64,000 nucleotides of DNA from Halovivax ruber XH-70. GTDB lineage: Archaea > Halobacteriota > Halobacteria > Halobacteriales > Natrialbaceae. The stretch's first letter is position 1; each line of letters opens with the position of its first letter. Positions 41,348-43,709 of this stretch are shown here, one piece after another. Where the stretch lies: positions 3,100,001-3,164,000 of the forward strand of contig NC_019964.1 of NCBI RefSeq assembly GCF_000328525.1. Reading direction: 5' to 3'. The notes under the pieces were generated by a model. That model was given only the letters and a program-made list of their open reading frames with translations. It was not told where the DNA came from and made no database searches. The translations under genes were made by a program, and so were the position numbers.

Positions 41348-41511
41348 GGGCGGAAGTAGCGGCCGTGGCTACAAAGCGGTTGTCGAGGCGGTGAGTGACG
41401 GTGGTGACCGTGACGTCGAACCAGTCGCCCAGTCAACGCGCTGACGGCCCGCACTCCGTTCGTGGCGTCCCATTCGCACCGCCCTGTTTGCACCCATCTA
41501 GCGGTGGGAGT
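41348..41511. other. Gap after the flavin reductase gene, upstream part
   Basis: No gene is seen. A weak stem CCCA...TGGG at about 41492-41507 precedes the ORB-like site. Confidence 0.5.
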
Positions 41512-41534
41512 TCCAGTGGAAGCGAAGGGGTTCG
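41512..41534 (+). other. ORB-like (Orc1/Cdc6 recognition) sequence
   Basis: GTTCCAGTGGAAGCGAAGGG continues with GTT. It resembles the archaeal origin recognition box, a CCAGTGGAAAC core followed by a G-string, with one change (AAAC to AAGC). An A/T-rich stretch lies 55-85 bases downstream (41588-41619), in the position of a duplex-unwinding element. A weaker inverted relative (minus strand CCGGAAAACGAAACTC) lies near 41793-41808. No orc1/cdc6 gene is nearby. Confidence 0.4.
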
Positions 41535-41624
41535 CGGCGAGGGATGGCGAAATCAATCGTGATCGCCGACTTGATTCCACCAGCCACCAGTAACTATATT
41601 ACCCATCACGTCAATTATCCAGAC

Positions 41625-41687
41625 GGAAGCCGCGTCCGCATGGGCAGAAATGCCCCGGGTGTTAGAGGCACCCGAGACGTGGCTTCC
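41625..41687 (+). ncRNA. Predicted three-way-junction RNA (unnamed)
   Basis: A 12-bp stem (41625-41636 with 41676-41687, one G-U pair) encloses two perfect hairpins: GGGCA-GAAA-TGCCC (41642-41655, GNRA tetraloop) and CGGGTG-TTAGAGG-CACCCG (41656-41674), which abut with no linker. The G-U pair and the GAAA loop both indicate the plus strand. Two more perfect hairpins follow. It does not fold as a tRNA and no RNA family is recognised. An A/T-rich stretch at 41588-41619 could supply a promoter. Confidence 0.4.
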
Positions 41688-41688
41688 A

Positions 41689-41706
41689 AATCCCCTAGCC
41701 GGGATT
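41689..41706 (+). repeat. Hairpin following the RNA candidate
   Basis: AATCCC-CTAGCC-GGGATT is a perfect 6-bp stem with a 6-base loop, two bases after the three-way junction. Confidence 0.7.
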
Positions 41707-41734
41707 CTGGTCGCCATGTTCCGAAACACACCTT

Positions 41735-41752
41735 CGAGACAAAAAGGTCTCG
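41735..41752 (+). repeat. Second hairpin following the RNA candidate
   Basis: CGAGAC-AAAAAG-GTCTCG is a perfect 6-bp stem. It could end the putative transcript, though no T-run follows. Confidence 0.65.
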
Positions 41753-41864
41753 CACGCCCGTTGCCTAGAGAGTCGTATCGCTACCCGTCGCTGAGTTTCG
41801 TTTTCCGGGATTGGGGGCCGAGTCGCTTCGATCGGTTCGAGCCGTCGGACTGCGAGGTGCTCGG

Positions 41865-42119
41865 ATGAAATCCGTCGAGCGAACGCGCGACGGGACCGGC
41901 GAGACGGTATCTGATCGGGAGTGCTATCGGTGTGATCGGGACGTGGCACCGGCGCGGCTGTTTCGGGTCACCACCGAGCCGCCAGCCGCGTTGTCGCACG
42001 ACTACCAGACGGCAGAACGCTGGTGCTGTCCGGACTGTGCGGCCGGGATGAACCTCTCTGAATTTTCGGAACGGTTGAAAGCACGCGCCGGACGGGAGGG
42101 GTCATCGCCGACGGAGTAA
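41865..42119 (+). CDS. Small CxxC zinc-finger protein
   Basis: An 84-residue protein with CYRCDRD near residue 20 and CCPDCAAG near residue 55, a typical four-cysteine zinc site in which an H-Y-rich loop (LSHDYQTAERW) lies between the knuckles. The C-terminal 20 residues are basic. Haloarchaea encode many such proteins of unknown function. The start at ATG 41865 is the most reasonable of several. Confidence 0.7.
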   Translation: MKSVERTRDGTGETVSDRECYRCDRDVAPARLFRVTTEPPAALSHDYQTAERWCCPDCAAGMNLSEFSERLKARAGREGSSPTE

Positions 42120-42207
42120 AACCACCGTCAGCGTGGCGAGGATGTGACCGCTGCCATTTGCAACAGCATTTGAGGGCATTCAGTATGCCACCTTGTATGG
42201 GAAACCC

Positions 42208-43464
42208 TCACCCACCAGCCGGGAGCGTCGCGCGGCGCTGGATGGCGTCGGCAACGCCCCGATACTCCCGCAGATACGCCAACTCCGCCAGTCGATCGTC
42301 CAACGTCTCGACACGTACCGTGCCGTAGCCCGCGATGCGAGCGGCGAATCCCCGGTCGACAGAGACCGACTCGATCGTGTCGTATGGGAGTTGCCAGACG
42401 GGTTCCCCAAGCCAGCGGTCGTAGCACACGAGTTGGTCGTCGTAGCACTCGTATTCGAGACTCCCGTGTCGCGGGAGCGAGACGATCAGGGCGGGGAGTG
42501 TCACGAGGAGGAACCCGACGGTCAGCGAACCGGTGGAGGCGATCGGTCGGCCGTCGACGACAAAGAGGAGAGCGAATCCGGTCGAAACGAACACCGAAAG
42601 CGACGCATGGATTCCCAGTAATCCACGGAAGGGGCTGGCGGCCACAATACTCGAGATACTGGGACGAACGGTCGTCTGTGGGGTGGCACCGGGGTGAGGA
42701 ACCGACGGGACCGCACCGATCTCGGTCAACCCACCCTGACGAGAGAGCCCCGCGAAGAACGCTTGCTCGTACTCGATGGGAGTCTCGGTTGTCCGTCTGA
42801 ACCATCGCCAGCGGCGGGTATGGACGAGCGCGACGAGGGCGAGTTTCCCACCGACGATGGCGTAGAGGACAGCCAGTGGCGCAGGATCCGAAGCACTCCC
42901 TGACAGCGAAACGGAGACGACCAAGCCGACGAGAACGAGTATTCCGACTGTGTACGCCGACGATGCGGCAGCGGCCGATTCGGGGGACTCCCGTTCGAAT
43001 TGGTTCGTCCGGAAGTATGCCCGCGCCAGCAAGCCGTGTCCCAGCGCGAGCAATCCGGCTGTGACTACCACGCCAGCGTGCAGTTCCCACCACGGATGCG
43101 ACAGTGGCGATGCCGACCAGAGGAGGGCCGCTCCCGTCACGGTCCAGAAAGCAAGAAATCCGAGCAGTTGCGCGACGATCGAGGGCACGTTCCGAGCAAG
43201 AACGGATCGACCGGCGATGTCGAGCGTGCCTCGTCTCACCCGGACAGACGGTTCGCGTCGCTGCTCAGGAATCGGGTACGTGACGAGTCTGGCAGGCCAT
43301 GCTCGGACAGCCCCAACGGCGATCACGACGAACCACTCGATCCAATACAGGACTATAAGTTCGTTCACTCCCCAGCCGAGTGCTCCAGTTCCGAAGAGCG
43401 GGAAGAGATTGAGACAGAGGAGACCGACAACACAGAGCCGACAGCCACCGAAACGAGATTCCAT
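42208..43464 (-). CDS. DUF6498-type membrane protein with PH-like C-terminus
   Basis: A 418-residue membrane protein. The N-terminal half (NLFPLFGTGALGWGV, VLYWIEWFVV and a KNVPSI-like ARNVPSIVAQ segment) matches the DUF6498 pattern, a family known only by sequence (assignment from memory). It has about nine hydrophobic segments. The last 90 residues resemble a PH-like domain: LEYECYDDQLVCYDRW and VWQLPYDTIESVSVDRG. A GTG start at 43494 that overlaps the preceding stop codon is an alternative. Confidence 0.75.
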   Translation of the reverse strand: MESRFGGCRLCVVGLLCLNLFPLFGTGALGWGVNELIVLYWIEWFVVIAVGAVRAWPARLVTYPIPEQRREPSVRVRRGTLDIAGRSVLARNVPSIVAQLLGFLAFWTVTGAALLWSASPLSHPWWELHAGVVVTAGLLALGHGLLARAYFRTNQFERESPESAAAASSAYTVGILVLVGLVVSVSLSGSASDPAPLAVLYAIVGGKLALVALVHTRRWRWFRRTTETPIEYEQAFFAGLSRQGGLTEIGAVPSVPHPGATPQTTVRPSISSIVAASPFRGLLGIHASLSVFVSTGFALLFVVDGRPIASTGSLTVGFLLVTLPALIVSLPRHGSLEYECYDDQLVCYDRWLGEPVWQLPYDTIESVSVDRGFAARIAGYGTVRVETLDDRLAELAYLREYRGVADAIQRRATLPAGG

Positions 43465-43490
43465 ATGTGAATACAACGTAGACAGTGTCG

Positions 43491-43709
43491 TCACTCGGCA
43501 CTATTTTGCCAACTTCCGGTTACGAGTTCCAGCGTGAACAAGACGATCGCTATCGTGAATGCTCCAGCGTAGGGAAACTCTGCACCCAGCAGGAGACTGA
43601 CTGCGAGCCAGCCGAGCCCCGCGGAAATCCCAATGAAAACCGCATACGGCCCACGGGGAAGACCCCGCAACCAGGCATCAGTACGAGAATAGAATCGTTT
43701 CAGAGACAC
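43491..43709 (-). CDS. Small two-helix membrane protein
   Basis: A 72-residue protein with two hydrophobic helices (about residues 22-42 and 46-64) after a basic N-terminus (RFYSRTDAWLRGLPRG). No family is named. It lies immediately upstream of the DUF6498-type gene in the same direction and is probably in its operon. Confidence 0.65.
   Translation of the reverse strand: MSLKRFYSRTDAWLRGLPRGPYAVFIGISAGLGWLAVSLLLGAEFPYAGAFTIAIVLFTLELVTGSWQNSAE

Follow-up and report, generated by a model that had tools for sequence, protein, structure and literature searches.

A candidate two-state RNA leader ahead of small zinc-finger-type genes in haloarchaea

The window analysed here is a stretch of 64,000 nucleotides from Halovivax ruber XH-70 (NC_019964.1, positions 3,100,001 to 3,164,000), and all positions below count from its first letter. 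On its plus strand, a promoter, a folded RNA and two overlapping reading frames follow one another. The promoter (41571-41601) consists of a conserved TTGATTCC block and a TATA box, TATATTA (41595-41601). It is kept among the copies of the locus in the same genome, while the DNA further upstream is unrelated between copies. The TATA box lies about 27 nt 5′ of the first stem, P1, and a TATA-like element stands at a similar spacing in other families. Given this position and spacing, transcription is predicted to start at 41625, the first base of P1, or at an adjacent base.

The RNA begins with the P1 5′ strand, GGAAGCCGCGUC (41625-41636), which pairs over 12 bp, one of them G-U, with the P1 3′ strand, GACGUGGCUUCC (41676-41687). 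P1 closes a three-way junction (41625-41687) over two hairpins, P2 (GGGCA-GAAA-UGCCC, 41642-41655; 41642-41646 with 41651-41655 across a GAAA loop) and P3 (CGGGUG-(UUAGAGG)-CACCCG, 41656-41674; 41656-41661 with 41669-41674 across a 7-base loop), which abuts P2 without a linker. Two further 6-bp hairpins follow: P4 (AAUCCC-(6 nt)-GGGAUU, 41689-41706; 41689-41694 with 41701-41706) and P5 (CGAGAC-(AAAAAG)-GUCUCG, 41735-41752; 41735-41740 with 41747-41752). All of these stems had been described in the initial annotation of the window, and each is present as drawn there. However, that annotation had placed them in a gene-free gap, which is wrong. P5 lies within the codons of an upstream open reading frame (uORF) of 50 aa (MFRNTPSRQKGLARPLPRESYRYPS..., 41716-41868), whose AUG at 41716 stands within GCCATG, 28 nt past P1. 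The uORF stop overlaps, as ATGA, the start of a second gene (ORF2, 41865-42119), which encodes an 84-aa Cys-rich protein of the form CxxC...CxxC. By longer comparison of the Halovivax copies, the repeated unit begins at about 41571 and extends as far as this ORF does, ending near 42096-42119. Beyond it on the minus strand, a 428-aa membrane-type ORF (42128-43494) lies between the element and a hef-like helicase gene; the 1.7-kb stretch holding this ORF has no match in the corresponding flank of three other Halovivax species.

Folding statistics agree that stems this regular are unlikely to arise by chance. The plus strand of 41625-41752 has a minimum free energy of -61.4 kcal/mol, whereas shuffled sequences average -45.5 (z = -4.2) and none of 200 folded as well. 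The leader alone (41625-41715) reached z = -4.8. A search for tRNA and tmRNA found neither at the locus, and Rfam 15 gave no match for 41360-42200 at the gathering threshold or at E-values up to 10, so the earlier statements that the RNA is not a tRNA and belongs to no known family hold within these searches.

How widely does the RNA occur? A 191-base query found matches in 23 of the 61 genomes searched, its own among them. A first covariance model (R1) detected 23 copies in the own genome, 82-88% identical to each other; across the order, 54 of 293 genomes had matches. A second model (R2), rebuilt from a wider set, added families, and the relatives now span seven haloarchaeal families with up to 28 copies per genome. 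Among 393 genomes sampled by phylum, matches were confined to the haloarchaeal order. A DNA pattern search in named genomes returned at least 120 places, and those listed all lie in genera that we take, from their names, to be Natrialbaceae; none of the places lie in IMG/VR, and phage and viral collections had no match to the element. Named hosts beyond the Natrialbaceae are Haladaptatus and Halalkalicoccus jeotgali. We regard the element as a new, previously undescribed RNA family. Its copies can lie close together, as in a 3.3-kb segment with three of them (G024:C1:1570913-1574231). Several own-genome copies (among L263, L266, L032, L038 and L269) stand beside a recurrent variable gene set, which includes proteins with PDAPIPDAP repeats and acidic proteins of 300 aa; near L263 it also has one that carries an HELAHVKQQ motif. 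A 599-kb plasmid of Haladaptatus halobius (NZ_CP085339.1) has thirteen places that resemble the leader of SWIM-type genes.

The covariance-model test that the initial annotation had proposed was clearly passed. In 67 model-aligned sequences, 95.2% of cells were paired against 84.5% in shuffled controls, and 16 of 22 pairs were compensated by changes on both sides against 9.9 when shuffled. The covariation score was 0.320 against 0.130 shuffled, and controls with slid partners stayed at or below 0.083; this alignment leans to the structure of its model. However, alignment bias cannot explain the helices because P1 and P2 are replaced wholesale between families (for example GGAAGCCACG/CGUGGCUUCC, GGAAGACCGG/CCGGUCUUCC and GAGAGCACAG/CUGGGCUCUC). 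P2 carries compensatory changes in five of its six pairs, and P3 is paired in 100% of cells. P4, which lies outside the covariance model, forms 5.2 contiguous pairs against 3.8 in shuffled segments and does so with many different pair sets. In P5, one of six pairs clearly covaries (46 of 53; shuffle maximum 43). RNAalifold on an earlier MAFFT alignment (A1) recovered mainly P1 and P3 because P2 and P4 were misaligned there; A1 was replaced by the covariance-model alignment (A4).

The junction is not the most constant part of the element; that is the tip of P3, a GUG with a tetraloop-like core above it that is mostly closed by C.A or U.G, together with the GAA in P2. Among P3 loops of six bases, the first and last positions are mostly C.A or U.G (127 of 172; mutual information z = 45.7), with Watson-Crick closing absent among the listed pair types; the survey of loops in distant families mixed some P2 hairpins into P3, and the clear P3 rows alone were used. 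Our preferred interpretation is an isosteric wobble-type closing pair. Inversion of the loop as a recombination site, for which C..A and T..G would be reverse complements, was considered and rejected because the inner positions lack reverse-complement symmetry. Across about 270 elements the P3 loops are otherwise highly variable, with 96 different sequences in 134, and two copies 4.3 kb apart (L195 and L203) are nearly identical outside this loop. The junction strand J1/2 varies in length and has no obvious conserved small-molecule pocket. A pseudoknot between the P2 loop and J1/2 is suspected by eye.

What lies behind the element is also conserved in kind. We found that 138 of 177 non-redundant elements precede a small ORF on the same strand with two Cys pairs, as against 2 of 120 control positions further downstream and 20 of 177 divergent upstream ones. 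The proteins belong to unrelated types: zinc ribbons in Natrialbaceae, SWIM proteins in Haladaptatus and others (one scores 21.5 bits with Pfam SWIM, cut-off 19.6), and 44-aa proteins in another family. Some targets have no Cys pairs, for example MSTRKAATQEP.... In the window, ORF2 holds CYRC and CPDC within 84 aa, and its protein had no significant match in Pfam or NCBIfam. Its reading frame is open in nearly all Halovivax copies. Paralogues (22 copies, two species) have a median dN of 0.160 and dS of 0.579 (dN/dS about 0.28), and comparison with the H. asiaticus orthologue gives dN 0.016 and dS 0.298; judged by these rates, ORF2 is under purifying selection. The initial annotation had called the locus a structured non-coding RNA. 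Structure and plus strand stand, but a leader that acts in cis on its mRNA is a better reading than a free-standing non-coding transcript, because of the placement of the promoter, the nearby AUG, and the closeness and context of the start and the type of gene that follows, which are conserved through seven families. A separate, processed short RNA might also come from the locus.

The uORF is typical of Natrialbaceae and is absent in Haladaptatus and Halalkalicoccus, where the RNA lies directly 5′ of the gene. Its motif, [HQYL]K[RGH], is conserved in relatives. The first 24 codons have dN/dS 0.30 and a low dS (0.124), which points to constraint at the nucleotide level there too, while the remainder (dN/dS 0.90) looks unconstrained as protein. 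The lysine codon of the motif (41743-41745 in the window) is AAA in all 53 non-redundant uORFs, in GC-rich genomes, and the adjacent synonymous sites are frozen. Three copies (L186, L190 and L134) encode the motif and the zinc ribbon in one continuous frame, joined by a long acidic linker, which supports a functional link between the two. Could the peptide itself be the regulator? As a leader-peptide attenuator, a short basic peptide of the HKRLAR or YKRPAR type would stall or release ribosomes before the zinc-finger ORF. The conserved motif with its invariant codon, the low dS in the first 24 codons and the stop-start overlaps would suit such a device. However, other families carry the same RNA directly 5′ of the gene and have no uORF, and the fusions also speak against it, so that we give attenuation little credence.

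The abundance of the element raises another question, namely whether it is a mobile repeat: a small dispersed transposable element whose RNA fold serves its own movement. Copy numbers of 23 in this genome and 28 in another, the close clustering of copies, and downstream flanks that often differ between species would be expected of such a repeat. However, the copy in the window keeps its position, between the same flanking genes, in four Halovivax species, the identity among copies gives no sign of a recent burst, and purifying selection acts on the downstream ORF. An alignment of 13 copies revealed no terminal inverted repeats, and conservation fades past the ORF2 stop. Most of the other own-genome copies have at least one flank in common with H. 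asiaticus, with variable downstream flanks. With the shared flanks, the 82-88% identity and no terminal inverted repeats seen in the alignment, a gene family that dispersed long ago seems likelier than a transposon still active, and we consider movement of this kind very improbable as the reason for the RNA.

The feature that sets the leader apart lies around the start codon. The sequence before the AUG repeats the P1 5′ strand, family by family, and the P1 3′ strand can therefore pair with either. It covaries with both. In the window, the start-codon region GCCAUGUU (41713-41720) can pair with GACGUGGC (41676-41683), and when the P1 5′ strand is left out these segments form an 8-bp helix with P4 at its tip. 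Across 34 P1 classes, pairing between the 3′ strand and the start context of its own class comes to -9.29 kcal/mol, as against -6.73 with those of other classes. A permutation over the 34 classes gave z = -7.2, with none of 20000 trials reaching the own value, a figure that is not a strict probability since the classes share ancestry. An earlier version on a smaller scale gave 1 in 2000. Examples of the alternative pairing are GAAGCC:GGCUUC, GAAGACC:GGUCUUC, GAAACCC:GGGUUUC and GACAACC:GGUUGUC. Some start codons were set by rule (the first plausible AUG, with C before the AUG preferred in the first set), which could slightly favour the pairing signal; annotated RefSeq starts are independent of the rule, and those of the Haladaptatus (SWIM) and Halalkalicoccus genes lie exactly at the AUG predicted from the leader.

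In partition functions computed without the first 12 nt, 72 of 91 elements have their AUG region paired with the P1 3′ strand, compared with 19 of 91 in a control with swapped starts. Full-length leaders range in silico from wholly P1 to mostly the alternative, some having folds of near-equal stability. In the window's own copy P1 is far more stable (P = 1.00), making a spontaneous flip unlikely without a factor, a 5′-shortened transcript or co-transcriptional folding. Copies with a CGCGG P1 strand have the A-U pair to the AUG broken, and Halovivax starts form 6-8 bp with the P1 3′ strand rather than 9. From these comparisons, P1 and the AUG-hiding hairpin appear to compete for one strand as mutually exclusive helices.

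We therefore propose that the element is probably a cis-acting, riboswitch-like leader with two states, through which the translation of a small protein of zinc-finger type is controlled. A translational switch is the simplest account of two helices at the start codon that both covary and exclude each other. The computed features are those looked for in a riboswitch: a covarying receptor-like structure, an exclusive start-hiding helix, and a place in the 5′ leader of related genes. Transcription would begin at or next to the first P1 base. In state A, P1 would close the junction over P2 and P3, P4 would be a small hairpin, and the AUG would be exposed. In state B, the P1 3′ strand would drop its 5′ partner and pair with the bases through the AUG, giving a long hairpin, tipped by P4, in which the start codon is hidden. 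Whatever stabilises P1 would decide the outcome, be it zinc or some other metal ion, a different ligand, a protein, salt or temperature. In Natrialbaceae, including the window, the uORF would be controlled first, and translational coupling would probably carry the signal on to the zinc-finger ORF; elsewhere the RNA would act directly on the gene behind it. Haloarchaea do not strictly require a Shine-Dalgarno sequence. The structure, its conservation, its gene association and the covariation of both competing helices are computed observations, and we infer the interconversion of states in cells, the direction of control, the coupling and the trigger.

What might the trigger be? The list of targets suggests zinc or a shared protein, and occurrence in haloarchaea only allows for an effect of salt. 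A leader in which a protein on P2/P3 locks P1 or the start codon, with no small ligand, is a serious contender that we place somewhat short of an even chance; it overlaps with the proposed switch, of which it could be one possible trigger. The protein would perhaps be the zinc-finger protein encoded behind the leader, or else a single RNA-binding protein shared by the leaders. This reading draws on the constancy of the P3 tip and the P2 GAA, which exceeds that of the junction, and on targets that are mostly small proteins of zinc-binding type, a common RNA-binding fold. A duplicated protein-binding motif would equally account for the likeness between the start context and the P1 5′ strand. However, the unrelated downstream proteins argue against each one binding its own leader, while leaving room for a single shared trans factor. 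That the folds respond directly to heat or ionic strength and involve no specific ligand is unlikely: the restriction to haloarchaea and the near balance of several leaders in silico are in keeping with a salt or temperature sensor, yet a simple thermosensor has no need of a conserved P3 tip and P2 GAA, and the balance varies widely among copies. We also think it rather doubtful that the element is a riboswitch class for zinc or another metal, in which the ion would bind the P2/P3 junction, lock P1 and free the start codons of the micro-proteins. If it were, one RNA class would set the zinc-protein pool at more than 20 sites per genome.

The proposed two-state leader resembles several known systems in part. 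T-box leaders are one RNA class with many copies before related genes and two competing folds. The haloarchaeal RNA is likewise repeated before related genes with two competing folds; however, it has no Rfam T-box match, a tRNA-pairing specifier was not seen, it is archaeal, and it would act at a start codon and not a terminator. Like translational riboswitches, it opens the mRNA with a folded domain that is conserved and has a strand in common with a start-hiding helix. Unlike them, it would hide the AUG itself with no Shine-Dalgarno sequence involved, resembles no Rfam family, and occurs in up to 28 copies per genome, mostly before small zinc-finger genes. A natural archaeal example, the fluoride/crcB riboswitch of Thermococcus kodakarensis, is cited in PMC8241225. 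An S15 ribosomal-protein leader exists in Halobacteria, according to PMC7247131. That class too comprises cis-acting, structured haloarchaeal mRNA leaders, possibly bound by protein, whereas the present element has many dispersed copies and a competing start-hiding helix. Membership in the class was rejected because the genes behind the element are small Cys-rich or SWIM genes, not ribosomal ones.

The downstream products recall the C(P)XCG zinc-finger micro-proteins of Haloferax volcanii, which carry two CxxC-type motifs (PMC11241148, PMC6562870). The leader-linked proteins are likewise small, with two CxxC-type motifs and putative zinc binding, and the window protein has the two motifs, though its 84 aa slightly exceed the 70-aa limit used for the Haloferax set. 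The passages searched in these two papers on haloarchaeal zinc micro-proteins describe neither this RNA nor a leader RNA for C(P)XCG micro-proteins, and the RNA does not appear in those searched on haloarchaeal riboswitches and archaeal leader or motif surveys (PMC8241225, PMC7247131, PMC2864571).

Hardly any natural RNA switches are known from archaea; PMC8241225 names just one case established by experiment as of 2021. The element looks like a candidate for a new kind of archaeal RNA gene switch, widespread in haloarchaea and carrying built-in evidence of two competing folds. It also flags small zinc-finger genes in large number, which annotation can miss and may often have missed. The leader offers a handle on start-codon control in haloarchaea and on the purpose of dozens of zinc micro-proteins. 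In Natrinema sp. SYSU A 869, the zinc-ribbon ORF after one leader (L352) is missing from the plasmid gene table.
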